From Chitinophagaceae bacterium (GTDB taxonomy: Bacteria > Bacteroidota > Bacteroidia > Chitinophagales > Chitinophagaceae): a stretch of DNA of 64,000 bases. Location of the stretch: positions 1 through 64,000 of the forward strand of contig JAHEZD010000009.1 of the NCBI GenBank assembly GCA_023251255.1, given 5' to 3'. Made by a program: the position numbers and the translations under genes. Below the pieces are notes generated by a model, which was given only the letters and a program-made list of their open reading frames with translations, was not told the origin of the DNA and did no database searches. Within the stretch, counting starts at the first letter, position 1, and every line of letters starts with the position of its first letter. Of this stretch, positions 2,951-41,824 are shown piece after piece.

Positions 2951-3586
2951 GAGGTATTTTTCCAGAGGATGGAGTATTTTCAACCATTTCCAACCCGGTA
3001 AGAAGACAACGTAATTGATGAAGCTGATAGTAAAACCCTGTTTCTTGAAGATCTTTTTGAAATGTGATGCAGTAAGCAAATGTGCATTGCCATCAAAGGT
3101 GCAGGTCTTCACCAAATATTGGGTACCGGGATTGAAAGGATTATGCTCAAAGAGGTACAGACGCCCACCTTTCTTCAATACCCGTTTGGCCTCGTTCATC
3201 AGTGCTTCATGCTGGTTCAACGGTACATGGTGAAAGATGCAGGCAATAAAAATGGCATCGAAACTTTCATCTTCAAACGGCACTTGCCTGCCATCAAACC
3301 ATTGGAAGTTGGTATTGGGTGCATGTTTCAATTTGGCCACATCGATACTTTCCTGAGAAACTTCTATTGCTTCGATTTTCCAGAGGGGGAAATAACGGAA
3401 CATGTATTCTGCTGTATAGCCATCACCACAGCCCAAGTCCAATAAGCGCAGAGGTTTGTTGGGTTCATATTTGGCCAGCCATTGCATTTTTACATCTACA
3501 AAATGCAGGCTGTCAAAGCCGGTGAATTTTAAGTTCTCATTATGTAGTTGCCTGTAATCTTTTGCGTATTGGTCAAATTCAGCCAT
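2900..3586 (-). CDS. class I SAM-dependent methyltransferase
   Basis: Rossmann-fold methyltransferase of the Methyltransf_11/25 type. Motif I is LDLGCGDG (near residue 50 of the shorter form), motif II contains IEAIEVSQ, the FDAIF strand corresponds to motif IV, and a post-motif has VLKKGGRLYLFEHNP. The start at MAEFDQYAKDY is preferred over one twelve codons upstream because the extra residues are not conserved-looking. The substrate cannot be read from sequence; the family includes quinone, lipid and small-molecule methyltransferases. It lies 40 bases downstream of the thioredoxin-like lipoprotein in the same direction, and its 3' end overlaps the convergent YfhO gene, so neither gene has its own spacer terminator. 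Confidence 0.82.
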   Translation of the reverse strand: MAEFDQYAKDYRQLHNENLKFTGFDSLHFVDVKMQWLAKYEPNKPLRLLDLGCGDGYTAEYMFRYFPLWKIEAIEVSQESIDVAKLKHAPNTNFQWFDGRQVPFEDESFDAIFIACIFHHVPLNQHEALMNEAKRVLKKGGRLYLFEHNPFNPGTQYLVKTCTFDGNAHLLTASHFKKIFKKQGFTISFINYVVFLPGWKWLKILHPLEKYLSWLPLGGQYFFGVTKK

Positions 3587-3626
3587 GTATGCAAATGTGC
3601 ATGATGTAAAACAAATGAGCAATTGT

Positions 3627-4175
3627 TTATTGGATCCTGCTCACAATTTCGCCTAATTCCTTATCGGGAGTTCCAGTTTTGCCATATTCAATTACCCTTC
3701 CCAATTCATTGCCTGCGTTATCAACCGCAATGAAGGTGGGCACGTTCGTAATCCTGTATTTTGTGTGGAGCTTGAAACTTGTTGTTTTTGCCCTATCAAC
3801 ACCAATCAAGAAAACCTTGTTAGCAGGGAAGCCGCTTTTGTCAATTAACTTATAAAATGTTGGCAATAGGTTCTGCGTGTCGTGGCACCATGTGCCCCCG
3901 AAAACAACCAAACTGAATTTGCCCTTGTTCTTTACAAAAGCTTCTATGGCATTGGCATCCGGTTGGGCATTCTTGAAGTTGTCATTGAACCATTTGAACG
4001 CAGTGTCGCTTTCAAGCAATTGACGGTTGATGATACCCTTTAAAATTTTTGCATTTCCTTCGTGGCCAGTATCCCTGCTTGTTTCATAGCTCACTTTGCT
4101 TAACTGTTTGAAAGGGCCTTTACTGCAGGAAGAAAGAAAAAATATGGTTGACAATAGAACCAAAATTCGTTTCAT
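3627..4175 (-). CDS. thioredoxin-fold lipoprotein
   Basis: Predicted lipoprotein: a short basic N-terminus, a hydrophobic stretch and lipobox LSSC with the lipidated cysteine at residue 17. The mature part has a thioredoxin fold: a FSLVVFGGTWCHDT strand-turn region and a later NVPTFIAVD strand with the cis-proline typical of thioredoxins. The active site reads WCHD, so only one of the two usual cysteines is present. A normal dithiol cycle is therefore doubtful; it may act as a peroxidase-like or structural thioredoxin in the envelope. It lies 13 bases downstream of the MerR gene on the same strand and is probably co-transcribed with it. Confidence 0.72.
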   Translation of the reverse strand: MKRILVLLSTIFFLSSCSKGPFKQLSKVSYETSRDTGHEGNAKILKGIINRQLLESDTAFKWFNDNFKNAQPDANAIEAFVKNKGKFSLVVFGGTWCHDTQNLLPTFYKLIDKSGFPANKVFLIGVDRAKTTSFKLHTKYRITNVPTFIAVDNAGNELGRVIEYGKTGTPDKELGEIVSRIQ

Positions 4176-4188
4176 ACAATCTAGTTAA

Positions 4189-4983
4189 TTAGTGGACAGC
4201 TAAGTTAGCCTTCAATTCCAACAAGAAGGAACGGAATTTTTGAAGTGATTGCGTAAGCTTGTAATTGGTATCGGCACCTTTCTTATTAGTTTTCAAATAT
4301 TGCTTGGCACCATCAATGGAGAACTTCCTGTTGCGGAGCAGGTAATAAATCATTTGCAGGTTCTTGATATCTTCCACGCGGAAATACCGGTCACCTTTCC
4401 TGTTCTTTCTTGGTTGGAGTATATCGAATTCAATTTCCCAGGCCCTGATCAGCGAACTGTTCACATTGAAAAACTTGGCTACTTCCCCAATTGAATAGTA
4501 CAATTTCTTGTTCAGGGTTTCATCATCAGGCACTCGTATTAAACCTACTTCGGCATCCATGTCCTTGAAGCTCTTGCGGCCCCTTTTTTTCAATGGGTTT
4601 GTTGGGTCGGCTGCTTTCTGCACTACCCTAACCTTCTCAATAAATACTTCTTTCCCCTCAATTGTTGGTGCGGTAGTAATACCGACAGGTAAAATGGGTT
4701 CTTTTACTGGTGTTGTTATAGTAACAGGTTTTGCCTTTATCCTTACATTGATCTTGCCGTCATTGAAAACTACATTGCTTGGTGCTGGTACAATTGATTC
4801 CTGAATGCTGGATGGTTCATATTCAATTGCAGGCATTGCAGCAACTGCCTGCTTCTCCTCAATCGCAGCAATCTCCATCTTTTCATCAGTAACCACTATT
4901 GCTGGTTCCTGCTCAGCAATTTTTTCTGGTTCAGCAAACATGCTGAAGAGGTCCAATTGCTGCAATGATTTTTTTTTAGCCAT
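4189..4983 (-). CDS. MerR-family transcriptional regulator with long N-terminal extension
   Basis: DNA-binding regulator. The MerR winged helix-turn-helix occupies residues 161-230 (YYSIGEVAKFFNV, SLIRAWE, then the wing with GDRYFRVEDIKNL). It is followed by a short helical tail. The first 160 residues are Pro/Ala/Glu/Lys-rich and look disordered. Bacteroidota have many such MerR proteins that lack a known effector domain; the target is unknown. The start is the ATG followed by a lysine-rich run. The upstream spacer to the divergent dehydrogenase gene is about 170 bases and may hold both promoters, but I could not identify convincing boxes there. Confidence 0.82.
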   Translation of the reverse strand: MAKKKSLQQLDLFSMFAEPEKIAEQEPAIVVTDEKMEIAAIEEKQAVAAMPAIEYEPSSIQESIVPAPSNVVFNDGKINVRIKAKPVTITTPVKEPILPVGITTAPTIEGKEVFIEKVRVVQKAADPTNPLKKRGRKSFKDMDAEVGLIRVPDDETLNKKLYYSIGEVAKFFNVNSSLIRAWEIEFDILQPRKNRKGDRYFRVEDIKNLQMIYYLLRNRKFSIDGAKQYLKTNKKGADTNYKLTQSLQKFRSFLLELKANLAVH

Positions 4984-5154: not shown

Positions 5155-6003
5155 ATGAACAACATACATACTATCTGCGTTTGCGGTGCAGGCACTATGG
5201 GAAGTGGTATTGCACAAGTGTCAGCACAGGCTGGCTTCAATACCATACAGTTTGATGTGAATGGGGCCATGTTGGAGAAAAGTAAGGCTGGCATTGAAAA
5301 AAGCTTGCAATTTTTGACCGACAAACAAAAAATAAGTACCGAAGAAAAGGATGCCATCCTTAAAAGGATATTGTTCACTTCAAACATCCAACAATGTGTT
5401 GCAGATGTCTGTATTGAAGCCATCATAGAAAAGAAGGATGCCAAGGTTTCCCTGTTCAACGACCTGATAAAAGTAAACGGTGCACAAACTATTCTTGCTA
5501 CCAACACCTCTTCGATTTCTGTTAATGATATTGCTGCAGGAGTAAGTACCCCTTCGAATATAGTTGGTATGCATTTCTTCAACCCTGCAACCATCATGAA
5601 ATTGGTGGAAGTCATCAAGGGAAATCAAACAAGTGATGCTACCGTTGAAACAATTATGACCCTTTGCAAGCGCATGAACAAGGTACCTGTGGTTTGTAAG
5701 GATGCCCCGGGCTTTATTGTGAACAGGGTGGCAAGGCACTATTATCTAGAAGCTATGAAGCTTATTGAGCTTAACTTGGCAACGGTTGAAACGGTTGATG
5801 CTATCATGGAAGCAACTGGGTTCAAGATGGGACCGTTCAAGCTCATGGACTTAATTGGTATGGACATTAACTTTGGCGTAAGCCATATTGTTTGGGAGGC
5901 ACTGGGCAAACCTGAGAGGCTTACACCTTCCATTGTCCAGCAACAGAAAGTAGAAGCCGGTGACCTGGGAAGGAAAACAGGCAATGGTTTTTACAAATAT
6001 TGA
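5155..6003 (+). CDS. hbd: 3-hydroxyacyl-CoA / 3-hydroxybutyryl-CoA dehydrogenase
   Basis: NAD(P)-dependent dehydrogenase that interconverts 3-hydroxyacyl-CoA and 3-oxoacyl-CoA, in beta-oxidation or butyrate/PHB-type metabolism in the cytoplasm. The N-terminal Rossmann fold has the GAGTMGSGIA nucleotide loop at residues 9-18. The catalytic region shows NTSSISV and the HFFNPA motif with the active-site histidine. The C-terminal helical dimerisation domain contains GFIVNRV and ends in GRKTGNGFYKY, as in the 282-residue stand-alone enzymes. Length matches the family closely. It is monocistronic-looking; the next gene is 69 bases on and unrelated. Whether the physiological substrate is C4 or longer cannot be told from sequence. 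Confidence 0.9.
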   Translation: MNNIHTICVCGAGTMGSGIAQVSAQAGFNTIQFDVNGAMLEKSKAGIEKSLQFLTDKQKISTEEKDAILKRILFTSNIQQCVADVCIEAIIEKKDAKVSLFNDLIKVNGAQTILATNTSSISVNDIAAGVSTPSNIVGMHFFNPATIMKLVEVIKGNQTSDATVETIMTLCKRMNKVPVVCKDAPGFIVNRVARHYYLEAMKLIELNLATVETVDAIMEATGFKMGPFKLMDLIGMDINFGVSHIVWEALGKPERLTPSIVQQQKVEAGDLGRKTGNGFYKY

Positions 6004-6072
6004 CCATTCATCCATTCCTTTTCAAATAATCCTTCTTCATTTATTTAATTTTCATTCCTCAACCGAAACTAC

Positions 6073-7845
6073 ATGAAAAAGATGCTTCTCCTTTTTACTG
6101 CTATTGTTATTATTACTAGCTGCAAACTTTCCAGTACCAACCAGCACGAAGAAGACAATAAGGAGCTTTCTGCCCTTTTCGATAAGTATTACAAGGAAAG
6201 ACTGGAGCTCTTCCCTTTGGAATCAACACAGAATGGGGACAGCATCCTCAACGATAAAATGTATGTGGACTTTACAGACGGCTATCGGAGCAAGTTGAAA
6301 GACTTTTACAGCAGGTACTTAGCATTTGTAAAATCATTTGATAGGGAAAACTTGAATGCCAACGATAGGATCAGTTATGACATCTTCAAACGTGAAATGG
6401 AAATGAGTATTGAGGGCCTTTCCTTTCACGACAATTATATCCCTTTCCAACAGTTTTGGGGGCTGCCATTGACCATGGGCCAATTGGGCAGTGGTGATGG
6501 CAACCAATCCTTTAAAACCAAAAAGGACTATAGTGACTGGTTGGCAAGGGCAACGGTATTTGGTGCTTGGGCAGATAGTGCCATCACCTATTTCAGGAAA
6601 GGGATAGCAGCCAATTATGTACTACCTGCAATATTGGTTACCAAAATGATTCCTCAAATGGAAGCTATGGTTGTGGCAGACCCTACAAAGAGTTTGTTTT
6701 ATGCACCCCTTCATAAAATGCCGGCTGCCGTAGCTGCGGATTCAATTGCTTTGGCAAAACAATACGAACAGCTTATTGCAGCAACCATCGTCCCTTCCTA
6801 TAAAAAACTGGCAGATTTTTTAAAGAACGAATACTTGCCAAAGGCAAGGGCAACTACAGGCATCAATGCACTGTCAGAAGGCGGTGCTTACTACAAATAC
6901 CTTGTCCGTTTCTGGACAACGACAAACAAGACCACGGATGAAATTTACAATACTGGATTGAGTGAAGTAAAACGCATACGCGATGAAATGGAGCGTGTTA
7001 AAACCGAAGTGAAGTTCAATGGCGACCTGAAGGCCTTCTTTGAGTTCATGAAAACCGATAAGCAGTTCATGCCCTATAAAACACCTGCCGAAGTATTGGG
7101 TGCATTTGCTGCCATCCAGAAAAAAATTGACCCCAAATTGAAGGACATGTTTGGTCGCGTACCAAAAACACCTTTTGAAATCCGCCAAACGGAGGCCTTC
7201 CGTGCAGCCAGTGCCAGTGCAGAGTACAATCAGGGCAGCGCTGATGGAAAACGTCCGGGTATCTTTTATGTACCTATTTTGGATGCTACCAAATTCAATA
7301 CGACCAGTGGTATGGAAAGCCTGTTTTTGCACGAAGCGATTCCCGGTCACCATTACCAAATTTCCCTTCAGCAGGAAAATGATAAACTTCCCGGCTTTAG
7401 GAGGTTCAGTTGGTATGGTGCCTACGGTGAAGGTTGGGCTTTATATTGCGAAAGCTTGGGCAAGGAACTTGGCTGCTATACAGATCCTTACCAGTACATG
7501 GGAGCCTTGGGCGACGAAATCCATAGGGGGATCCGTTTGGTAGTGGATGTGGCCATGCATACAGGCAAAATGACCCGTGAAGAGGCCATTAAATACATGA
7601 TGGACAATGAAGCCATTAGCGAAGAAGGGGCCACTGCCGAAATAGAGCGCTACATGGCCATACCTGCACAGGCATTGAGTTACAAGACAGGTGCTTTGAA
7701 AATCAAGGAGCTCCGTGAAAAATACAAGCAACAATTGGGTGACAAGTTCAAACTTGCTGCTTTCCATGATGAGCTGCTGAAAGATGGCTGCATGCCTTTG
7801 GAAGTAATTGAACGGAAGATGGATGATTGGGCAAAGGGGCAGTAA
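6073..7845 (+). CDS. DUF885-family lipoprotein (putative metallopeptidase)
   Basis: Predicted envelope lipoprotein of 590 residues with lipobox IITSC and the modified cysteine at residue 17. The rest is the all-helical DUF885 fold. The key site is HEAIPGHH near residues 420-427, a HExxxGHH-type metal-binding motif. A downstream EGWALYCE contributes the third ligand region, as in gluzincin-like carboxypeptidase folds. DUF885 proteins are annotated as putative dipeptidases or oligopeptidases, but few have been tested. A strong hairpin terminator lies 75 bases beyond the stop. Family is certain from the motif pair; peptidase activity is likely but unproven. Confidence 0.85.
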   Translation: MKKMLLLFTAIVIITSCKLSSTNQHEEDNKELSALFDKYYKERLELFPLESTQNGDSILNDKMYVDFTDGYRSKLKDFYSRYLAFVKSFDRENLNANDRISYDIFKREMEMSIEGLSFHDNYIPFQQFWGLPLTMGQLGSGDGNQSFKTKKDYSDWLARATVFGAWADSAITYFRKGIAANYVLPAILVTKMIPQMEAMVVADPTKSLFYAPLHKMPAAVAADSIALAKQYEQLIAATIVPSYKKLADFLKNEYLPKARATTGINALSEGGAYYKYLVRFWTTTNKTTDEIYNTGLSEVKRIRDEMERVKTEVKFNGDLKAFFEFMKTDKQFMPYKTPAEVLGAFAAIQKKIDPKLKDMFGRVPKTPFEIRQTEAFRAASASAEYNQGSADGKRPGIFYVPILDATKFNTTSGMESLFLHEAIPGHHYQISLQQENDKLPGFRRFSWYGAYGEGWALYCESLGKELGCYTDPYQYMGALGDEIHRGIRLVVDVAMHTGKMTREEAIKYMMDNEAISEEGATAEIERYMAIPAQALSYKTGALKIKELREKYKQQLGDKFKLAAFHDELLKDGCMPLEVIERKMDDWAKGQ

Positions 7846-7920
7846 ACAACTTTATATGGCAGATTGCGATGATTAGACTGCGACTAAGCCACACTATTGC
7901 ACTAGAGATTTTGAATTTTA

Positions 7921-7958
7921 AAGGTGAAGAAGCGAAATCCCATTTCTTCACCTTTTTT
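7921..7958 (+). terminator. intrinsic terminator after the DUF885 gene
   Basis: Perfect 11-bp stem (AAGGTGAAGAA at 7921-7931 with TTCTTCACCTT at 7944-7954) around a 12-base loop, running directly into a run of six T. It is placed to end transcription of the plus-strand peptidase gene. Confidence 0.85.
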
Positions 7959-8258
7959 CGTATTATGAGTTTCAAAATAACATGTTTATGCAAATCATCA
8001 GAAGCATACAAAACAGGATTTATGAATTAAGGGGGGAAGGGTCATATTGGATAGGGATGCAGGAAATAAAGGAAAAACCCGGTCAGCATGATGGACAGCT
8101 CAATGAAATTTATGATACCATGGAAACCTCTTGAATGAAAAAGCTACACAGAGACAATGGGACAATTGGGAAAGAATTGGCTTTAAAAGGTAACCATCGG
8201 TGCCTTGATCAACTTCTACAGAAGTAGTCTTTAAATAAAACAAGAACATCAAATCAAA
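7959..8258. other. 300-bp spacer without a supported gene
   Basis: Only two tiny open frames of about 25-30 codons occur (near 8058 and 8134). Neither has a recognisable product or a convincing ribosome binding site. No repeat or RNA structure was identified beyond the terminator at its left edge. Confidence 0.5.
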
Positions 8259-8525
8259 TTAGCTTTCTTTTTCACCATTCACCGGTAAAGCTTTTTCCGG
8301 GAGAAAATCGCGTGGGGACATACTGAAATAATCGGCAAGGGCATTGATGTGCCTGATATTGTATTTTGAACCACTGTTGATGCTTTCGACATCCCTGACA
8401 AAGGACCTGGAAATCCCGATAATATTCCCAATACCTTCCTGCGTAAGTCCTTTCTTCATTCTCAAACTTCTTACAAAGTCTATTACATACTGGTCTATGG
8501 GTGCAATATTTTCTTGATTCTTCAT
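8259..8525 (-). CDS. small XRE-family helix-turn-helix regulator
   Basis: An 88-residue Cro/CI-type DNA-binding protein. The HTH spans about residues 12-70 (LRMKKGLTQEGIGNIIGIS, then FVRDVES for the recognition helix), followed by ALADYFSMSPRDFLP, which is the usual end of a single XRE domain. I start it at the ATG of MKNQENIAP rather than 18 codons upstream, because the extra residues are hydrophobic and unlike the family. It stands alone with no partner toxin or phage gene nearby. Its target is unknown. The spacers on both sides contain no other convincing coding sequence. Confidence 0.78.
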   Translation of the reverse strand: MKNQENIAPIDQYVIDFVRSLRMKKGLTQEGIGNIIGISRSFVRDVESINSGSKYNIRHINALADYFSMSPRDFLPEKALPVNGEKES

Positions 8526-9043
8526 CTGCCCATGAAATACGTCAAGAAAAAAAAATATCATGGCACCCATACACGCCATTTAAAACATTTCATTATATTC
8601 GTTTTATTATTATTTTCTGTTTTTGACGGTACTGGGCCTGAGAAATCCGAGTCATGGAACAGGAAAGAAAAGCAAACACATTCGCTATACGCAAACCTCT
8701 AAGGGGCGGGTGCCTATTTTGTTATGGGGATATTTTCTCAGGTCTCAGTAATGAAACAATGGGCCCCGCTCTTTTACCCGTTTACACCCTCTCCCGGGGT
8801 GCCTTGCATAGGGTATTGCTTGGGTTACTTAGGAACCGCCTATCCTATTACAGGACATCGAAGCATGGTCATGGGCCACTGAACCACACACTTTGTACAG
8901 TTTGCAGGTGCGAGAACCTTGGCGGCGCTGGGCTGGTATTGGTGAAATCCAGTTCCATCAGCATTTCCGATGCGGCAGTTGCATGAAGCCCGTCACGTTT
9001 TTATGGCCAACGGAAAGAGTCTGGGCTCAAGCGATAAGGGGCA
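8526..9043. other. half-kilobase stretch with no recognisable gene
   Basis: Open frames here (for example on the plus strand at 8654-8986) give Ser/Arg/Gly-rich translations that match no family I know and lack a ribosome binding site. GC is slightly higher than in flanking spacers. The stretch may be decayed coding sequence, but I cannot name a parent. Confidence 0.4.
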
Positions 9044-9075
9044 TAAAAAAGCCACAACTTGAAAAAGCCGTGGCT
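9044..9075 (-). terminator. intrinsic terminator of the sigma/barrel/lipoprotein unit
   Basis: Read on the minus strand, AGCCAC (9070-9075) pairs with GTGGCT (9050-9055) and is followed at once by a run of six T (9044-9049). It lies about 48 bases past the stop of the small lipoprotein gene, so it would end the three-gene minus-strand unit that begins with the sigma factor. Confidence 0.6.
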
Positions 9076-9122
9076 ACACTAACTATTTGTCGTGTTACTG
9101 CTTGAGATAAAAGCCTCCTTAA

Positions 9123-9458
9123 TTATTTACGTTGGTAACAGCTCAATGTGGCATTTTGATAAGCAACACCTTTACAAGGCGTGGTACCAGGAAGGGAATC
9201 ATAAGTGATGTAGAAATAAGCGGTGTTGACAATGGTGTCAATAGCTGCGATGCCTGTGCCTACGGCAATCCATTTGTTCTTGCTATGCACATAAAAAAGG
9301 TTGTAGCCGGGGCAGGACAAGGAATCCGCCAGGAGATAGGCACTATCTGTACAGGTGGTAGCGGTTTTGAACGTTTCGTTTGTATCCTTCTCGCAGGAAA
9401 CAAAAATAATTGTTGTTACCAGTGCCAGGACCAGTGTTGCGGTAATGATTTTTTTCAT
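9123..9458 (-). CDS. small cysteine-containing lipoprotein, hypothetical
   Basis: A 111-residue predicted lipoprotein: MKKIITAT start, hydrophobic helix, and lipobox FVSC with the modified cysteine at residue 22. The mature chain has four more cysteines, which could form two disulfides in the envelope, and no domain I recognise. An upstream in-frame ATG would add 21 residues and spoil the signal peptide, so I use the inner start. It follows the barrel protein by 74 bases in the same direction and is followed by a terminator. It is likely the last gene of the sigma-factor unit and may be exposed at the surface together with the barrel protein. Confidence 0.62.
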   Translation of the reverse strand: MKKIITATLVLALVTTIIFVSCEKDTNETFKTATTCTDSAYLLADSLSCPGYNLFYVHSKNKWIAVGTGIAAIDTIVNTAYFYITYDSLPGTTPCKGVAYQNATLSCYQRK

Positions 9459-29895: not shown

Positions 29896-30003
29896 GGATG
29901 TTGGATGTTGGATGTTGGATGTTGGATGTTGGATGTTGGATGTTGGATGTTGGATGTTGGATGTTGGATGTTGGATGTTGGATGTTGGATGTTGGATGTT
30001 GGA
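29896..30003. repeat. perfect heptanucleotide tandem repeat between exporter genes
   Basis: About fifteen head-to-tail copies of GGATGTT with no sequence error, starting at the base after the permease stop codon and ending 64 bases before the ATPase start. A unit of seven is not a multiple of three. It makes spurious minus-strand frames rich in NIQHPTS but shifts no real reading frame. Copy number is likely to vary by slippage. The effect would be on spacing or mRNA between the two exporter subunits. Confidence 0.95.
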
Positions 30004-33409: not shown

Positions 33410-34438
33410 TTGGGAGCAAGGTCAAGATACGTCGAAAGGATTATCAACAATGTACCCTACACTGTTCTCAAAAAAATATTTGTCATAGTAATCCGGGCCC
33501 TTAATAAAAAGGGGGACCATTTTGTGACCTATCAAGAAAGGCCCAAATTTTCGGCAGCCATACAGTTCAATCCATTGGGTTTAAGGTATGATGATGTGGC
33601 CATTGTGATACAGGGGCCAGTGGTAGCGGAGGAAGGATTTACTTTAGAAACGGTAAAGCTTTACCTCAAGAATTTTTCAGGTGTCACTGTCATTGTTTCG
33701 ACTTGGGACGATACTGCTGCACATTTACTGCAAGAACTGAGAGATGCTGGAGCCCTTATTGAGGCGAATGAGAAACCTTTGCATGGCGGTTTTATCAATA
33801 TCAACTTCCAAATAGTCAGCTCCAATAAGGGGCTTAAAAGGGCAAAACAGCTTGGGAAAAAATATGCTGTTAAGAGCAGGAGCGACCAACGACTGTACAA
33901 CCCTTTTTTCTTGAGCGCTTTTCAATTGTTGGCTTCAAGTAATACCAATGCTACATTGGCGGCCACAGGACTAAAGGGTAGGTTGATTGTTGGTTCCATG
34001 AGTACTTTGAAGTACAGACCTTATGGCATAACGGATATGCTGATGCTTGGCTATACCGATGACCTATTGCTGTACTGGCCCTCTAATTTGGATGATAGGC
34101 AGGTGGAAATGAAAGCTGGTTTGAACGTATTGGACTATGCTAAACTAGAAGTGACAGAAACCTACCTGCTGACGAGCTTTTTAAGAAGGGTAGGCACAGC
34201 ACCGGATTTCACACTTGCACAAACTTGGGAAATATATAAGGACCTTTTCATGGTACTGGACAAGGCGAGCTTTAATGTTTTTTGGTACAAGTATTCAATT
34301 GAAAAGGAGAATAGACTGGATTATTTTGATGACCATGTATACAAAGAGCTCAGTTTTTTTGAATGGGCCTCACTTTCCAATCATCCGGTTGTTCCAGAGG
34401 AATACCTGAACCGGGAAATTCCACCCTACACACCGTAA
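33410..34438 (+). CDS. WavE-like glycan biosynthesis protein, copy 1
   Basis: Member of the WavE family, named after the Vibrio cholerae LPS core gene and presumed to be glycosyltransferases. The 342-residue protein starts with TTG. Family motifs seen are VAIVIQGPVV, then TVIVSTWDD, GFININFQIVSS and YAVKSRSDQRLY. The last carries the acidic and basic residues that probably bind nucleotide sugar and metal. Two further WavE-like genes lie 3 and 6 kb downstream, and their motifs line up (QGP/QGG, STWD/E, RSDQR/RTDQR). The gene overlaps neither neighbour. The family is assigned with good confidence; the sugar and linkage are unknown. Confidence 0.75.
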   Translation: MGARSRYVERIINNVPYTVLKKIFVIVIRALNKKGDHFVTYQERPKFSAAIQFNPLGLRYDDVAIVIQGPVVAEEGFTLETVKLYLKNFSGVTVIVSTWDDTAAHLLQELRDAGALIEANEKPLHGGFININFQIVSSNKGLKRAKQLGKKYAVKSRSDQRLYNPFFLSAFQLLASSNTNATLAATGLKGRLIVGSMSTLKYRPYGITDMLMLGYTDDLLLYWPSNLDDRQVEMKAGLNVLDYAKLEVTETYLLTSFLRRVGTAPDFTLAQTWEIYKDLFMVLDKASFNVFWYKYSIEKENRLDYFDDHVYKELSFFEWASLSNHPVVPEEYLNREIPPYTP

Positions 34439-35631: not shown

Positions 35632-36738
35632 ATGAACCGCAGTTATAAATACCTCATTGCCATACTTCAATACAGGAACGTGGAGTATGCCATGACCACT
35701 TTCCTGCACTTGCATGCGGCCATCAAGGACTTGGCCATCAAGACGGAGTGCAAGATTATTATTGCTACGGACCTGGAGAACTCCTATAAACTTAAACGTT
35801 TCCATAAGGCTTTCAAAAAACAGTACCATTTTGATATACATGTGAGCAATGGCTTCTATCCGGATAAGCTGGCTTCTATTTTCAAGAAATACCCGAAGGA
35901 GCGGTTTGAGACATTTATCAAATGCGATGAGGAGATCTTCCTTTCGCCAACCACTTGGCGGCAGTTTCTTTTATTGGCCAATAAGGAGCTATCAAAGCCC
36001 AGCAATTTGCTTGCTACTGTAAACTTGTCTACGGGCATTCCAAGTTGGTCCTTTTTTGCGGAGGCTTTCTTTACGGATGCAGAGAATGCAACCATGCAAA
36101 CCGAACTGTTGGAAGCAAGGCTTCCTGCTGTTATTTGGAACAATGATTACAGTAGCCTGAACCATACTATTCAATCGTTTGGTACCTGGAACGAGGCTGG
36201 TTATTGGAATGCGGTGAACCAATTGCCCTATCATTTTAAAGGGATACACCCTATACGGTTGAACATATTTTATTCGAAGTTCATTAATGAAACGATACTA
36301 TCGAGGATCAACCAGTTTTATGACTGGCCAGTAAAAGAGAATTTCAACTATGTGGACAACCGGTATTTCTGCAATAGTTTTTTTGCTATCGATTATGCTA
36401 AATACCAAGCCATTATTGCAGATAAGGACCTTTATGTGGATGCTTTTGATGAAGTGCCACTGAATAGATACAGGGCCGCACATTTCCTGAATATTGCTTT
36501 TTTGCAGGAGTCGCTGGCTGTTCATATCACCTATAATTCAGTGTACGAACAGACCGTGGAGCTGGCTGGTATGCAGTTGAACGGGAAGCAATTGGAAGAT
36601 TATTTCATGAATGGTTACCAGCAGGAAATAAGGAAATTGATTGGCGGTACCAACAACTATATGGAAGTGGCCCCGCTACCCTTGAGCTACTTTATTAAAA
36701 GAACCGCCCAAAAAATACGCAGCAAATGCAAATTATAA
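35632..36738 (+). CDS. hypothetical glycan-locus protein, possible GT-A glycosyltransferase
   Basis: A 368-residue protein without a family I can name. It opens with strands and helices resembling a nucleotide-diphospho-sugar transferase (YKYLIAILQYRNVEYAMTTF, KIIIATDLENSYKL). At about residue 103 it has FIKCDEEIFLSPTTW, which looks like the DXD-containing strand of GT-A enzymes (here CDEE). Conserved-looking aromatic stretches follow (TGIPSWSFFAEAFF, FGTWNEAGYWN). The stop overlaps the next gene by 13 bases. Role in sugar transfer is inferred from this motif and the neighbourhood. A capsule-specific phosphotransferase is an alternative that cannot be excluded from sequence. Confidence 0.52.
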   Translation: MNRSYKYLIAILQYRNVEYAMTTFLHLHAAIKDLAIKTECKIIIATDLENSYKLKRFHKAFKKQYHFDIHVSNGFYPDKLASIFKKYPKERFETFIKCDEEIFLSPTTWRQFLLLANKELSKPSNLLATVNLSTGIPSWSFFAEAFFTDAENATMQTELLEARLPAVIWNNDYSSLNHTIQSFGTWNEAGYWNAVNQLPYHFKGIHPIRLNIFYSKFINETILSRINQFYDWPVKENFNYVDNRYFCNSFFAIDYAKYQAIIADKDLYVDAFDEVPLNRYRAAHFLNIAFLQESLAVHITYNSVYEQTVELAGMQLNGKQLEDYFMNGYQQEIRKLIGGTNNYMEVAPLPLSYFIKRTAQKIRSKCKL

Positions 36739-37355
36739 GCCATAGGGGCTACTGGAAGACAGCAGCCGAGAAAAATGGAATAGTTGCTTTCAACCGCAGT
36801 TTCAGTTTGGGGTTTGGCACAGAAACCGATTTGAGGGACTATGCTGGGGAGATTGTTATTTCGCATGATATGGCAGATGCAAACTCAATTAACTGTGATG
36901 AGCTATTTACTATTTTTTGCCAATACAACCCGCACTTGCCATTGGCGCTGAACGTGAAGGCGGACGGACTACAAAGTAAATTGAAGGGGCTAGTGAACAA
37001 ATATGGCATAGACAACTATTTTGTATTCGATATGTCCATTCCGGATACCATTGGCTACCTGAAACAGGGGCTGCGTTTTTTCAGTAGACAAAGTGAATAC
37101 GAACCAGTGCCAGCGTTTTATACAGATTGTGCAGGTGTGTGGCTGGATGCTTTTGAAGGTACTTGGTACGATGCTGATTTGATACATGCGCATATAAACA
37201 AGGGAAAGGAAGTGGCCATTGTGTCCCCGGACCTGCACAAGCGGGAGGTGACGGGCCTATGGAACCTGCTGAAGGAAACTGGTACCCATCAATTGGAGGG
37301 GCTGATACTGTGCACAGATATACCCGAAGATGCGGTGACTTTTTTTAATGCGTAA
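36726..37355 (+). CDS. GDPD-like phosphodiesterase in glycan locus
   Basis: A short (209 residues) glycerophosphodiester phosphodiesterase-like TIM barrel. The catalytic set is visible: HRG at residues 6-8, the acidic pair in TETDLRDY (E33, D35), the second histidine in ISHD (H47) and a lysine in LALNVKAD (K78). There is no signal peptide, so it should act in the cytoplasm, unlike nutrient-scavenging GDPDs. It lies between a putative transferase and a second WavE-like gene, upstream of a HAD phosphatase and two nucleotidyltransferases. This suggests it processes a phosphodiester-containing precursor or glycan modification such as a glycerol-phosphate group. The fold is well supported; the substrate is speculation. 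Confidence 0.7.
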   Translation: MQIISHRGYWKTAAEKNGIVAFNRSFSLGFGTETDLRDYAGEIVISHDMADANSINCDELFTIFCQYNPHLPLALNVKADGLQSKLKGLVNKYGIDNYFVFDMSIPDTIGYLKQGLRFFSRQSEYEPVPAFYTDCAGVWLDAFEGTWYDADLIHAHINKGKEVAIVSPDLHKREVTGLWNLLKETGTHQLEGLILCTDIPEDAVTFFNA

Positions 37356-37367
37356 TAATGGCGAATA

Positions 37368-38135
37368 TTGAGCATTGCTACTGAACATATAGGAACCGTG
37401 ATACAGGGCCCCACCATTTTTTACAAGGAAATAGTGGCCCATTATAAGGATGTGCCGAATGTGGTATGGAGTACCTGGGAAGATGAGCCAGCCGAACATA
37501 TCGCTTATATAAGGGCGGCAGGAATGCCTTTGGTTCTGCAAGACAAGAAAGGGCTGGAGCCGGGACACCACAATACCAACCTTCAATGCCTCTCCACTTA
37601 TGGCGGTATTGAGTTCCTTTCTGGCAACCCTGCCATTACACATATCCTTAAAATAAGGGCAGATTTTTTACCTAATCCTTTCCCTGTTTTTTTGGAACAA
37701 TGTGCCAAAAGCTTGGAGCATAAGGAAATGGCCTATATGGGCTATGTATGGTACTATCCCCAAAAAATGCAGCAACGCTATTACCTAGTTGATTTTTTGA
37801 ATGCCGGTACACTTGCTGCTATGAAAAGGTTCTGGCGGCCTGATTTCAATGCAAACAATGGCTTTCCCAATCCTGAAAAATGGCTGGAGAACAGGTATTA
37901 CCATTCAGAAAATTATTTGGAGAAAAATTACAAAAAGCTGGTGAAACAAGGTGCGTTCATAGTGTTTAAAGGATTTGCCATTAAATCCTTAAAGCTGCAT
38001 ATAGATTTTGGCAGGCGGATCTTTAAGGATGGGATTTACCGTGACCAGCCCACACTTAAGGAACGGTGGCAGCATGTACAGAAACTGACCGAAATAGTTT
38101 TTAAAAGAATAATTACCCTAAATAAAGGAGCATGA
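37368..38135 (+). CDS. WavE-like glycan biosynthesis protein, copy 2 (short)
   Basis: A 255-residue member of the WavE family with TTG start 12 bases after the previous stop. It keeps GTVIQGPTI, NVVWSTWEDE, HNTNLQCLS and HILKIRADFLPNPF, which correspond to the QGP, STWDD, NINFQ and RSDQR motifs of the other two copies. It lacks about 90 residues compared with them, mostly in the N- and C-terminal extensions. It ends with a basic helix (VFKRIITLNKG). The stop overlaps the HAD gene start by four bases (ATGA), so it is coupled to the activation module downstream. Substrate unknown. Confidence 0.68.
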   Translation: MSIATEHIGTVIQGPTIFYKEIVAHYKDVPNVVWSTWEDEPAEHIAYIRAAGMPLVLQDKKGLEPGHHNTNLQCLSTYGGIEFLSGNPAITHILKIRADFLPNPFPVFLEQCAKSLEHKEMAYMGYVWYYPQKMQQRYYLVDFLNAGTLAAMKRFWRPDFNANNGFPNPEKWLENRYYHSENYLEKNYKKLVKQGAFIVFKGFAIKSLKLHIDFGRRIFKDGIYRDQPTLKERWQHVQKLTEIVFKRIITLNKGA

Positions 38136-38758
38136 AAATTAAGGCCGTGATATTTGATATGGACGGTGTGCTGATTGATGCCAAGGACTGGCATTATGAG
38201 TCACTCAACAAGGCATTGGGCCTGTTTGGTGCCGAAATTAGCCGGTACGACCATTTGGTAACATTTGATGGACTACCCACCAAGAAGAAACTGGAGATGC
38301 TGAGTTTGGAGGGGGGCTTCCCTAAGGGGCTGCATGGTTTTGTGAACGACCTTAAACAACAGTACACCATGGATATCATCCATGCCAAGTGCAAGCCTGT
38401 GTTCCAGCACCAGTATGCGCTGTCCAAATTGAAAAATGCAGGTTACCATATGGCTGTTTGTTCCAACTCCATCCGTAAGAGCATTGAAGTGATGATGGAG
38501 AAAGCGGGGCTTTCCCCCTATTTGGATTTCATCATTTCCAACCAGGATGTAAAGCATGGCAAACCCGATCCCGAAATGTACAATACGGCCATTCAGCGTT
38601 TGGGTCTTGACCCCAAGGAATGCCTGATTGTGGAAGACAATGAAAATGGCATCAAGGCAGCATTGGCATCGGGTGGGCACTTATTGAAAGTGGAGAACCC
38701 GGATGATGTGCATTATTACAATATTGTTCACCGAATAGCTGAAATAGACAATGCTTAA
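38132..38758 (+). CDS. HAD-superfamily hydrolase, beta-phosphoglucomutase-like
   Basis: A 208-residue HAD enzyme of the subfamily with a helical cap. Motif I is IFDMDGVLID (D9, D11), motif II SNS (about 109-111), and motif III/IV HGKPDPEMY and CLIVEDNENGI with the metal-binding Asp. It would dephosphorylate or mutate a small phosphorylated metabolite in the cytoplasm. It is joined by an eight-base overlap to a nucleotidyltransferase gene and by an ATGA overlap to a WavE-like gene. A role in making or salvaging the precursor of a nucleotide-activated group is therefore likely. The exact substrate cannot be read from sequence. Confidence 0.85.
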   Translation: MKIKAVIFDMDGVLIDAKDWHYESLNKALGLFGAEISRYDHLVTFDGLPTKKKLEMLSLEGGFPKGLHGFVNDLKQQYTMDIIHAKCKPVFQHQYALSKLKNAGYHMAVCSNSIRKSIEVMMEKAGLSPYLDFIISNQDVKHGKPDPEMYNTAIQRLGLDPKECLIVEDNENGIKAALASGGHLLKVENPDDVHYYNIVHRIAEIDNA

Positions 38759-39476
38759 AATTATTATTCCATTGGCTGGACCGTCGGAACTGTTCAGCAA
38801 TGCGGGCTATTACTACCCGAAGCCCCTGATTGAAATCAATGGCCGTATCATGATTGAGCATGTGCTGCAAAATCCATCTGCTATTGAAGAGGAGCACCAG
38901 TTCATTTTCATTATTAGGGAGGAGGATTCCAATAAGTTCCATATTGATAATGTGTTGAAGCTGCTTGCCCCGAATAGCGAAATCATCAAACTGAAGAAGG
39001 CAACCAAGGGAGGGCTTTGCAGTGCCTTAATGGCCGTTGATAAAATAGCAGCAACGGATAGTGTACTGATATTGAATGGTGACCAGATACTGGATATTGA
39101 CTTTAATGAAGTGGGGCGTTACTGGAAGGAAAAGCAAGTGGATGCCGGTTTGATTACATTCAAATCTGTGCATCCCAGATGGTCGTACGCGAGGATAGAG
39201 CATGAGGAAGTGGTTCAAACGGCGGAGAAGAACCCTATTAGCAACCATGCAATTTCAGGGTACTACTATTTTGAGAAGGCGGCAGATTTTTTTGCAGCGG
39301 CTTATGAGTCCATTAAAAATGATGTACAATTGGACGGGATATTTTTCATTTCGCCCGTTATCAACCAATATGTACTCCTGAACAAAAAGGTAAAAGCTTT
39401 TACTATTGAAGCGGGGCTTTACCATTCGTTCTATTCGCCACAGATGGTGATTGAGTACGAGCGGAAGAGCCAGTGA
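38751..39476 (+). CDS. nucleotidyltransferase-like protein with altered signature, copy 1
   Basis: A 241-residue protein of the NTP_transferase (sugar-phosphate nucleotidyltransferase) fold. Preserved parts are the first strand (LKIIIPLAG), the YYYPKPLIEINGRIMIEHV stretch with the conserved lysine, and VLILNGDQILDID with the metal-binding Asp. The glycine-rich loop, which reads GEGSRF in the second copy downstream, is AGPSELF here. The arginine that usually contacts the triphosphate is thus missing. It may therefore have changed activity or serve as a regulatory partner of the second copy. It overlaps the HAD gene by eight bases. Confidence 0.72.
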   Translation: MLKIIIPLAGPSELFSNAGYYYPKPLIEINGRIMIEHVLQNPSAIEEEHQFIFIIREEDSNKFHIDNVLKLLAPNSEIIKLKKATKGGLCSALMAVDKIAATDSVLILNGDQILDIDFNEVGRYWKEKQVDAGLITFKSVHPRWSYARIEHEEVVQTAEKNPISNHAISGYYYFEKAADFFAAAYESIKNDVQLDGIFFISPVINQYVLLNKKVKAFTIEAGLYHSFYSPQMVIEYERKSQ

Positions 39477-39645
39477 GGGAAGATGAAGGGGGGAATTGGG
39501 TATTAGGAATTAGGGGAGTAGATAGGTTTGCCAAACTGTAATCAATGAAATCCTGATTGAAAGGCAGATCCGACAAGTGGTTGATTACTATCGGCTCAAA
39601 TGAATATTATTGGTGAACAGCATTTAATAATTACTTAAAAAACTA

Positions 39646-39972
39646 ATGATGATAGAAAAATATGCATTGGCTGATATGGTGAAGGGTTGGTTTATTGGCA
39701 ATTTTGAGCCGACACTTTATCAAACGAATGAGGTGGAAGTGGCCATCAAGGAATACAAGGCAGGGGATTATGAGGCATCGCACCACCATAAAATAGCCAC
39801 TGAATTTACGGTAGTGCTGAACGGGGAGGTGGAGATGGGTGGTGTTAGGTATGGCCATGGGTCAATTGTAAAAATAAACCCCGGTGTTTCAACAGACTTC
39901 AAGGCAGTAATGGATACAACTACTGTGGTGGTGAAGATACCAGGTGCCAGTAATGACAAGTATATAGATTAA
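39646..39972 (+). CDS. small cupin-domain protein
   Basis: A 108-residue single cupin. Motif 1 fits G(X)5HXH(X)3-4E(X)6G: GDYEASHHHKIATEFTVVLNG, with three histidines at 46-48, E53 and G60, so a metal site is likely. Motif 2 is weaker (YGHGSIVKINPG). It lies between two nucleotidyltransferase genes, the first 169 bases upstream across a low-complexity spacer and the second 19 bases downstream. Cupins in glycan loci act as sugar epimerases or isomerases or as small-molecule sensors; which applies here is open. Two adjacent ATG codons exist at the start; the first is used. Confidence 0.72.
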   Translation: MMIEKYALADMVKGWFIGNFEPTLYQTNEVEVAIKEYKAGDYEASHHHKIATEFTVVLNGEVEMGGVRYGHGSIVKINPGVSTDFKAVMDTTTVVVKIPGASNDKYID

Positions 39973-39991
39973 GCATAAAAACAAAAAAAAG

Positions 39992-40711
39992 ATGATCAAC
40001 ATCGTAATCCCCATGGCTGGAGAGGGCAGCCGTTTTGCAAAAGCAGGCTATGAGAAGCCGAAACCCTTTATTGATGTGGCTGGCAAGCCGATGATTGAAA
40101 GGGTGATGGACAATTTGCAATGTGAAGATGCCCGTTATATTTTGATAGGCCGTAAATCGCATCTTGAAAAGGAGCATGAACTGGTAAAGGAAATAACCGA
40201 AAAATATAATGCCGTATTTATAGGTATCGATAAACTTACAGAGGGTACAGCTTGTACCGTGCTTTATGCTAGGCAGTACATCAATACAGATGAACCCTTG
40301 TTGATTGCTAATTCGGACCAGTTGGTAGATATTTCTGTGCAGGACTTTGTAAATGATTGCGCTTCGAAACAATTGGACGGTTCCATCTTAACGTTTACTG
40401 ACCATGAGCTGAACCCTAAATGGTCCTTTGCAAAAATTGATAGCGATGGTCTGGTAACTGAGGTGCAGGAAAAAAAGGCTATTTCGGAATTTGCTACCGT
40501 GGGTATTTACCTTTTTTCGAAAGGGAAGGACTTTGTGAATGGGGCCATAGACATGATTATCAATAATGATAGGGTGAACAATGAATTCTATACCTGCCCT
40601 GTTTATAATTATGTTGTTGCGGAAAAGGGGAGGATTGGTATTTATAATATGCAGTTTGAAGAGATGCATGGGTTAGGAACACCAGAAGATTTAGTAAAGT
40701 ACTTGGGCTAG
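39992..40711 (+). CDS. sugar- or small-alcohol-phosphate nucleotidyltransferase, copy 2
   Basis: A 239-residue nucleotidyltransferase with a canonical signature: IPMAGEGSRFAKAGYEKPKPF at the start (glycine-rich loop and conserved lysine), the acidic LLIANSDQLVDI strand, and a late NEFYTCPVYNYVV. It should form an NDP-activated compound from NTP and a phosphorylated precursor. Its size is close to stand-alone cytidylyltransferases of capsule loci such as those making CDP-activated modifications, rather than to the 290-residue RmlA class. It is paired with a divergent copy upstream, a cupin and a HAD enzyme. Product identity is unknown. Confidence 0.82.
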   Translation: MINIVIPMAGEGSRFAKAGYEKPKPFIDVAGKPMIERVMDNLQCEDARYILIGRKSHLEKEHELVKEITEKYNAVFIGIDKLTEGTACTVLYARQYINTDEPLLIANSDQLVDISVQDFVNDCASKQLDGSILTFTDHELNPKWSFAKIDSDGLVTEVQEKKAISEFATVGIYLFSKGKDFVNGAIDMIINNDRVNNEFYTCPVYNYVVAEKGRIGIYNMQFEEMHGLGTPEDLVKYLG

Positions 40712-40726
40712 TTGTCCCTATTGCCA

Positions 40727-41824
40727 ATGCAGCCATTTACCATGCGTTTACAGGATGTTATACCAAGGGGGTTCCAGAAGCTAAAAAAGCTACTGCTGAC
40801 TTTTTTTGTTGGATTGGTGAGAACAGAAAAGTACAGTAGCCTGTTACTCGAGCTGGCCATCCAGAAAAGGGAACTGCTGGGCCATGTGGGCATAACCACC
40901 CATGAGAGACTGCTAGACGCTAGTAACATCAATACATTCTCAGATGCATTGAAGGAGTGTGCTAGTGTTGGTATCGTGATTCAAGGTGGGTTGAAGAAGG
41001 AGCATGATTTTACGCTACAAACCATCAAAATATACCGTCAGCATTTTCCTGATGCACATATCATATTGAGTACTTGGGAGAATGAGGATGCCGGATACTT
41101 GAACAGGATAAGAGCAGAAGGCATCGATATCGTATTATCTCCCCTTCCGGTTATATCCGGGTTCAACAATATCAATTACCAGATTGTGTCTTCCGTTGCA
41201 GGTATTAAGATGGCTGCCAGCAAAAATTGTGTTTATGTCTACAAAACAAGGACTGACCAACGCATGTATGCACCCAATATCAATGAATATTTGGTGAAAC
41301 TACTGGAGCAGTTCCCTATAACCCACGGATTCCTCCAAAAGCAAAGGCTGGTGGCCGTTAGCCTTAACACATTTAAATACAGGCTTTATGGAATTTCGGA
41401 TATGTTCATGTTTGGCAATACTATCGATATGCTTTCTTATTGGGACTGCCCTTTGGATGAAAGGACGATTCCTATAAATGATTTTTATGGCATGTCTACC
41501 TTGGATTTTGCTAAACATAAGACCTGTGAAGTATACCTCTTTACTAATTATTTGGATAAGCTGGGTATCCCTTACCATTGGACGCTTAAAGAAAGCTATG
41601 AACGGATGGCCGAGCATTTTGTGGTTATTGATAAAGAATCCATTGATTTATATTGGCCAAAGTATACGAGGCAGGAATATAGGTGGCTTAGTTATGCGAA
41701 TATTACCATGCACCAGGAAATCAATTTTAGGGAATGGCTGATTCTATATGCTGCGCTGCCCAATAAAATAATTAATGAGAACGAATTGGACAAGCGTTTT
41801 TTTGACGTGGTAACCAATCAATAA
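40727..41824 (+). CDS. WavE-like glycan biosynthesis protein, copy 3
   Basis: Third and longest WavE-family member, 365 residues from the ATG of MQPFTMRL; a TTG right after the preceding stop would add five residues. Motifs are VGIVIQGGLK, HIILSTWENED, GFNNINYQIVSS and VYKTRTDQRMYAP. These align with copy 1 (QGP, STWDD, NINFQIVSS, RSDQR) through most of the length, including the shared YRLYGISDMFMFG, which parallels YRPYGITDMLMLG of copy 1. The two are probably paralogues arising by duplication within this locus lineage. It directly follows the second nucleotidyltransferase gene, whose product it may use. Confidence 0.75.
   Translation: MQPFTMRLQDVIPRGFQKLKKLLLTFFVGLVRTEKYSSLLLELAIQKRELLGHVGITTHERLLDASNINTFSDALKECASVGIVIQGGLKKEHDFTLQTIKIYRQHFPDAHIILSTWENEDAGYLNRIRAEGIDIVLSPLPVISGFNNINYQIVSSVAGIKMAASKNCVYVYKTRTDQRMYAPNINEYLVKLLEQFPITHGFLQKQRLVAVSLNTFKYRLYGISDMFMFGNTIDMLSYWDCPLDERTIPINDFYGMSTLDFAKHKTCEVYLFTNYLDKLGIPYHWTLKESYERMAEHFVVIDKESIDLYWPKYTRQEYRWLSYANITMHQEINFREWLILYAALPNKIINENELDKRFFDVVTNQ

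Follow-up and report, generated by a model that had tools for sequence, protein, structure and literature searches.

Seven consecutive genes in a Chitinophagaceae bacterium encode a phosphodiesterase, a hydrolase, two relatives of nucleotidyltransferases, a cupin and two WavE-type transferases. Which of these belong together, and what might they make? The genes were studied in a window of 64,000 nt (the whole stretch analysed; positions 1 to 64,000 of the forward strand of contig JAHEZD010000009.1, GenBank assembly GCA_023251255.1). A first-pass annotation had treated all seven as a unit making a nucleotide-activated small group for a glycan, leaning towards a polyol or glycerol. The idea of a co-inherited block stands; its seven-gene limit does not, and the polyol lean finds little support. 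Five of the genes, encoding a GDPD-like enzyme, a HAD hydrolase, the nucleotidyltransferase homologues NTA and NTB, and a cupin, are a real conserved unit, associated far beyond chance. From their sequences we favour, with moderate confidence, the reading that they form a mobile cassette that turns an ordinary sugar phosphate of the cytosol into a single nucleotide-activated unit for surface polysaccharide.

The core genes in the window

The five core genes are located as follows.

36726-37355, + strand: GDPD-like, predicted cytosolic TIM-barrel phosphodiesterase (fold and catalytic residues)
38132-38758, + strand: HAD-IA hydrolase (HAD_2, 121.7 bits)
38751-39476, + strand: NTA, divergent nucleotidyltransferase (NTP_transferase, 31.1 bits)
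39646-39972, + strand: single-domain cupin (conserved residues and co-occurrence)
39992-40711, + strand: NTB, canonical nucleotidyltransferase (NTP_transferase, 54.5 bits)

Together with two WavE-type genes these form one run on the + strand, and the coordinates of the open reading frames (ORFs) agree with the positions and partial overlaps first reported. GDPD overlaps the preceding gene by 13 bp, HAD overlaps the second WavE copy by 4 bp, and NTA overlaps HAD by 8 bp. The largest gap (169 bp) is on the 5′ side of the cupin gene, and the other gaps are short.

Co-occurrence of the core genes

A genome collection was scanned with a HAD profile, and the best 80 of 524 confirmed relatives were analysed. 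Among these 80 are 32 orthologues (L017-L048, where L numbers denote loci and G numbers genomes of the samples compared), a lower bound for the collection, at 48-88% identity to the window HAD, after which identity drops to 36% and below. In the 32 loci GDPD is adjacent in 31, while full-score NTB, NTA and cupin are present in 30, 28 and 25 respectively. Another ten loci were taken from annotated plasmids, three found through NTB matches and seven through GDPD matches, and HAD adjoins GDPD in all ten. The five-gene core is found in other genomes, with GDPD and HAD adjoining in 41 of the 42 cassette loci. The compact variant of Pelagibacter (L049) is counted in neither the cassette nor the control set, and L013 and L014 are outside the 42. 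The control set of 47 loci with unrelated HAD proteins (L050-L096) contains no match to GDPD, NTA or cupin, and one weak antisense match to NTB (L076). Occurrence of the genes elsewhere independently of one another, named beforehand as the outcome that would speak against a block, was looked for, and the opposite was found.

Separate searches give a similar picture. In a plasmid collection (72,556 records) GDPD occurs in 27 records, each of which also belongs to the 37 found with the NTA query, a query that picks up NTB-type proteins too; cupin matches occur in seven, all among the 27. Rhizobium plasmids nearly identical to one another account for many of these 27, and three records contain a second set (see below) or a remote relative. 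Across 395 Bacteroidota genomes, strong GDPD (>290 bits), cupin and NTB (>300 bits) matches, each searched separately, are found in the same three: the source genome, G115 and G328. The source genome is there by selection, leaving two independent carriers. In both, the HAD match starts 2-8 bp after the end of the GDPD match, and the G115 cassette is cut by the contig end. In two other Bacteroidota genomes a double nucleotidyltransferase ORF lies near a weaker GDPD match (86-88 bits), and G425 and G274 contain partial or stop-interrupted NTB relatives with no GDPD match. With GDPD as bait, 398 Pseudomonadota genomes give two strong matches, in the centre genome of that sample and in G779. Neither is independent, and G779 is probably the same record as L011, since the coordinates are equal.

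The limits of the unit

Wherever else both genes are present (41 loci), GDPD and HAD are separated by -8 to 148 bp, and none of these pairs has a gene in between. The window is the only locus that does, so WavE copy 2 is taken to be a local insertion and the core to comprise five genes. WavE genes were rejected as core members, and with them the seven-gene boundary: they are present in 16 of the 42 cassette loci (11 of 32 found with the HAD bait and 5 of 10 on plasmids), against none of the 47 generic-HAD loci, as judged with a search model of six rows, three of which derive from cassette loci. The copies in the window are as follows.

33410-34438, + strand: WavE transferase copy 1, upstream satellite (PF07507, 59.2 bits)
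37368-38135, + strand: WavE-like transferase copy 2, non-core, between GDPD and HAD (WavE motifs)
40712-41824, + strand: WavE transferase copy 3, satellite (PF07507, 71.1 bits)

The PF07507 cut-off is 27 bits. Copy 2 has no Pfam match at E≤0.01, and contains the motifs QG, STW, G..N.N and K.R.D that are invariant in a six-row WavE alignment. Copy 3 has a TTG start at 40712, directly after the NTB stop codon, with an in-frame ATG at 40727. Both PF07507 matches of the source genome fall inside this locus, and the family is absent from 14 control genomes. The nearby WavE transferases are likely users of the cassette product, copy 3 probably among them.

Gene order within the cassette varies. NTB may precede GDPD, and L043 has its NTB and cupin genes on the opposite strand; the order was read from profile matches because a simple gene caller mis-called some loci. 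The surrounding locus is a large surface-polysaccharide cluster with many transferases (WbsX and WavE by Pfam), and neighbouring genes appear to encode an export protein, a chain-length regulator and an ABC transporter pair. A perfect GGATGTT tandem array of 15.4 copies (29896-30003) overlaps or follows the end of the ABC permease gene, 5′ to the ATPase gene.

The core proteins

Residue counts below refer to the window protein aligned with those from 35 of 38 full-score loci (GDPD), 35 of 42 (HAD), 31 of 39 (NTB), 32 of 36 (NTA) and 25 of 30 loci (cupin), with near-duplicate or similar rows left out.

The GDPD protein was modelled by AlphaFold2 (AF2) with a pLDDT of 97.4 from a 26-row alignment. 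In Foldseek 12 of its 13 top PDB matches are titled GDPD (TMq 0.67-0.76), and rank 1 is 7ww4, deposited as a multidomain glucanase. The catalytic set comprises E33, D35 and H47 (all 36/36), H6 (35/36) and R7 (34/36), and the protein begins at the first predicted strand of the barrel (residues 2-6), leaving no room for a signal peptide. The enzyme is thus as first described, with its catalytic residues intact and lacking a signal peptide. The window protein matches PF03009 not even at E≤1, nor any Pfam family at E≤0.01; PF03009 is matched by 4 of the 36 family members (best E = 0.00015). Family-specific motifs are W139/D141 and SPELH, and an invariant N76 occupies what we take to be the position of the glutamate in the canonical ExK motif. 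Among the 42 loci GDPD was not found in L031 and is weak (96 bits) in L045. In Candidatus Enterovibrio luxaltus (L027, 7365-7999) and in a spirochaete bin (L034, 283-923) its sequence is divided between two frames. NTB is likewise in two pieces in L012 (an Acetobacter persici plasmid, 6253-7010), and was not found in L028 and L039 in the same 42 loci. The split genes look like decaying or mis-sequenced copies.

HAD passes PF13419 (HAD_2) with 121.7 bits against a cut-off of 23.8, and D9, D11, H21, K144, E168 and D169 are present in 36/36 sequences. HAD and cupin are the most conserved of the core proteins (65 and 64% mean column identity respectively).

NTB passes PF00483 (NTP_transferase) with 54.5 bits against a cut-off of 21.2. 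Its G10, G12, R14, K24, D109, E160 and K161 are all conserved in 32/32 sequences, it falls below all the NCBIfam cut-offs listed by a wide margin, and its best solved match is 4evw (9.3e-34). NTB may also be linked to Pasteurella bcbE (CDD cd04183). NTA passes the same family with 31.1 bits, and its AF2 model has a nucleotidyltransferase fold, nearest to 4evw (TM 0.86). NTA and NTB are fused into a single protein in seven of the 42 loci, all alphaproteobacterial, which suggests that they work together. A third nucleotidyltransferase-like gene lies 3′ of the fusion in L005 (9741-10421), L006 (9747-10469), L007 (9755-10459) and L016 (9915-10622), and follows it also in L035, L040 and L041; a profile search found no cupin in these seven loci.

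The cupin is found in 30 of the 42 loci. H46, H48 and E53 are invariant (26/26), and a phenylalanine (25/26) lies near the position where we would expect the histidine of the second cupin motif. The window protein scores 15.0 bits against Cupin_2 (PF07883; E = 0.02, cut-off 27.2) and has no Pfam match at E≤0.01, and 21 of the 26 family members match Cupin_2 at E≤1 (best 1.1e-6).

Distribution, compact versions and a related set

Orthologues among the best 80 HAD relatives come from nine phylum-level groups: Bacteroidota, Pseudomonadota, Campylobacterota, Cyanobacteriota, Bacillota, Spirochaetota, Verrucomicrobiota, Planctomycetota and Melainabacteria. In the HAD tree phyla are intermingled; for example, a Butyrivibrio sequence groups with those of a cyanobacterium, a verrucomicrobial bin and a plasmid of Ruegeria (support 98/69). 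Only 8 of its 33 inner branches are well supported, so the tree makes horizontal transfer likely without proving it alone; occurrence on plasmids is further support. The cassette has thus likely moved horizontally.

HAD and NTB form one protein in Pelagibacter (L049), in G001, which belongs to the same genus as the window (L098), and in the cyanophages S-CAM9 (L107) and DSL-LC03 (L108), which suggests that the two act in consecutive steps. Each also has a short GDPD-like gene, which in L049 and L098 lies directly 5′ of the fusion and in the two phages 1-1.7 kb 3′ of it. These genes match the GDPD profile weakly (24.3, 21.1, 17.4 and 13.4 bits, the last two in the phages), and HR, ExD and HD can be seen by eye in the proteins of L049, L098 and L108. 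A phage search with the window GDPD as query gave no match. In S-CAM9 (5995-9155 of its locus) and DSL-LC03 (1797-4977) the fusion, a second HAD and the short GDPD-like gene lie among transferases. In Pelagibacter ubique HTCC9565 (7014-9383 of L049) the short GDPD and the fusion are beside a gene read as RfbC-like. The G001 version occupies 964-2889 of L098.

A second, related set is present on the Escherichia coli IncR plasmid p5-S1-CAM-01-A (L013, 6022-13224) and on Azospirillum brasilense p5 (L014, 5157-12541). It comprises a double nucleotidyltransferase, GtrA, a family 2 glycosyltransferase (GT2), a variant GDPD bearing the same family motifs as that of the cassette, a PRK/uridine-kinase-like protein, another HAD and a class II aldolase. 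The variant GDPD is found in two of the 395 Bacteroidota and five of the 398 Pseudomonadota genomes, and in five of these seven a double nucleotidyltransferase ORF lies within 3 kb on the same strand; it is ∼4.5 kb away on the other strand in G508, and on another contig in G490. None of the seven has a cassette-type HAD (best 116.8 bits, against >340 in cassette genomes).

Some individual loci have further features. A protein of ∼590 amino acids occurs in L009 (9391-11166), L011, L032 (9684-11456), L033, L037 and L042; two copies were scanned and gave no Pfam family over cut-off. Several of these loci have an ABC transporter and WavE alongside, and are perhaps compact polysaccharide loci. In Rhizobium sp. 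L51/94 (L016, 633-7642) the cassette lies 3′ of an operon of the polyol-catabolism type, which encodes an FGGY kinase, a glycerol-3-phosphate dehydrogenase, a triose-phosphate isomerase and an RpiB-type isomerase. A Citrobacter copy has no DNA-level match in the E. coli genomes searched.

Proposed pathway and alternatives

In the pathway that we favour, HAD would rearrange or remove the phosphate of a sugar phosphate, and NTB, with its intact catalytic residues and its fusion to HAD in the compact versions, would then join the sugar phosphate to a nucleoside triphosphate (NTP). NTA, keeping the sugar-phosphate-site motif with the NTP loop lost, would probably complex NTB and regulate or scaffold it, as GMPPA does for GMPPB. 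The GDPD-like enzyme may cleave or cyclise a phosphodiester inside the pathway, which is the least certain step. The cupin could be an isomerase or epimerase, or else a ligand sensor, absent from some lineages, and the WavE-type transferases nearby would be the likely users of the product. The directly established part of this reading comprises the conserved unit, the fusions, the residues and the folds. The first-pass idea of a nucleotide-activated group for a surface glycan fits these parts.

Neighbouring genes were clustered for the 42 loci and for positions 25001-50000 of the window, and the clusters were judged from sequence starts. Thirteen clusters are present in at least four loci; one is SDR-like (five loci, the window not among them) and none is kinase-like. 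The starting material is therefore probably a common sugar phosphate.

Several observations weigh against this reading. Such clustering would miss diverse or in-trans reductases and kinases. The distance matrices of the five core proteins correlate pairwise (r 0.35-0.66, with 0 of 2000 permutations as high), which counts in favour of the reading, yet such a correlation is compatible with co-inheritance or shared ancestry alike. NTA or cupin is missing from some loci and hence cannot be required in every carrier. A distance of ∼90 kb separates cupin and GDPD in Acetobacter pasteurianus, and the NTB match of Helicobacter bilis falls on a different contig. HAD was considered as a beta-phosphoglucomutase and rejected on its TIGR02009 score (120.5 bits against a cut-off of 153.35). 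Its nearest solved relatives include carbohydrate phosphatases as well as putative or proven beta-phosphoglucomutases, so that either a phosphatase or a mutase role may be envisaged.

A bolder role for GDPD within the favoured pathway seems improbable to us: it might be biosynthetic, freeing the nucleotide from a nucleoside diphosphate (NDP) intermediate by intramolecular phosphodiester transfer, in the style of IspF after IspD, or joining two units. GDPD-like enzymes that form cyclic phosphates are on record in the literature, in the excerpts available. If this role were correct, a new class of phosphate-bearing monomer would be widespread on bacterial surfaces, and cyanophages and Pelagibacter would have taken up the route in compact form.

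Alternatively NTB might make a CDP-polyol or CDP-glycerol, with GDPD supplying or trimming glycerol phosphate. The fold of GDPD would suit this, HAD resembles mannitol-1-phosphate and other carbohydrate phosphatases, and polyol phosphates are known from capsules (PMC10918830, in the text available). However, the CDP-hexitol pathways described in that text rely on an IspD-type PF01128 enzyme together with a PF01370 reductase. NTB scores 22.5 bits against PF01128, below the cut-off of 27, compared with its 54.5 for PF00483, and the core has no reductase; the sole SDR-like cluster is that in five loci, although the clustering may overlook diverse reductases. Support for a polyol or glycerol product, as first proposed, is accordingly slight, and we regard such a product as unlikely.

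We give about the same low weight to the idea that GDPD and HAD are metabolite-repair hydrolases, clearing wrong or dead-end products of a sloppy NTB rather than catalysing steps of the pathway. Both have hydrolase folds, and neither yields an activated product. Against this, the compact version joins HAD to NTB in one protein, HAD adjoins GDPD almost without exception (41 of 42 loci), and it is, with the cupin, the best conserved protein of the core.

It is less probable again that both NTA and NTB are active pyrophosphorylases, each serving a sugar of its own. The invariant T85, G87, C90, E159 and K160 are common to both, and NTA retains Lys24 in 24/33 and Asp111 in 25/33 sequences, with E159 and K160 in 33/33. 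Its NTP loop is not intact, however, with the arginine kept in 1/33 and G12 in 2/33, while Lys24 is replaced in 9/33 and Asp111 in 8/33. We take the loop to bind the NTP and the Glu-Lys pair the sugar phosphate, by analogy with RmlA-type enzymes. The two nucleotidyltransferases of the first-pass annotation both match PF00483, and are probably one active enzyme with a degenerate partner, NTA being a pseudo-pyrophosphorylase. Lastly, a chance run of unrelated polysaccharide genes, as a locus rich in transferases of many families might produce, is extremely improbable, and for the five core genes is ruled out by the co-occurrence counts.

Significance and comparison with known systems

Occurrence in nine phylum-level groups, with fused marine and phage versions, points to an uncharacterised component of bacterial surface glycans. 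Although the cassette is uncommon within any one group (3 of 395 Bacteroidota genomes), it turns up repeatedly across many; a single biochemical study would thus allow re-annotation of numerous loci whose present labels are ‘glycosyltransferase family 2’ or ‘hypothetical’. The five-gene set is apparently undescribed; no description was found in open-access PMC papers, consistent within that literature with the first-pass statement that no described pathway has this set.

Parallels in chemistry come from three papers, none of which mentions the cassette gene set in the text available (PMC10918830, PMC12275187 and PMC12369002). In the synthesis of CDP-glucitol and CDP-mannitol (HS5.17/HS5.18; Mnp1/Mnp2) a nucleotidyltransferase of the capsule locus charges a sugar phosphate from central metabolism, as the cassette is proposed to do, but the enzyme is IspD-type and works with a reductase, and the available text mentions no GDPD, NTA or cupin (PMC10918830). 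CpgD is a COG1213-type enzyme that synthesises CDP-glycerate for a sphingolipid, and so also charges a small phosphorylated metabolite for envelope chemistry; it differs in that no cassette-like partners are reported in the excerpts available (PMC12275187). The CDP-fucofuranose pathway depends on a dehydration step together with a reductase and a mutase (PMC12369002).

The cassette GDPD has the TIM-barrel fold and HR/ExD/H set of the bacterial and archaeal glycerophosphodiester phosphodiesterases 1zcc, 7e0v and 2otd, but is only 12-15% identical to the GDPD-titled structures among its top 13 matches. The cassette thus provides a GDPD that is predicted to be cytosolic and has an atypical active-site signature. 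NTB has the fold family and catalytic residues of RmlA, HddC and GlmU, the PF00483 hexose- or heptose-1-phosphate nucleotidyltransferases, from which it differs in falling below the listed NCBIfam cut-offs and in its regular neighbours GDPD, HAD, NTA and cupin. Its nearest solved structure (4evw) is from Vibrio cholerae; in the open-access papers, as far as their text was available, no functional study of it was found, the sole mention being in a paper on a crystallisation method. The GDP-mannose pyrophosphorylase GMPPA/GMPPB contains a pseudo-subunit, and NTB has weaker profile matches that include chains 7d72_K and 7d72_A. By analogy with that enzyme, in which an active subunit is paired with a degenerate homologue of the same fold, NTB and NTA offer a candidate bacterial pair of pyrophosphorylase and pseudo-enzyme.

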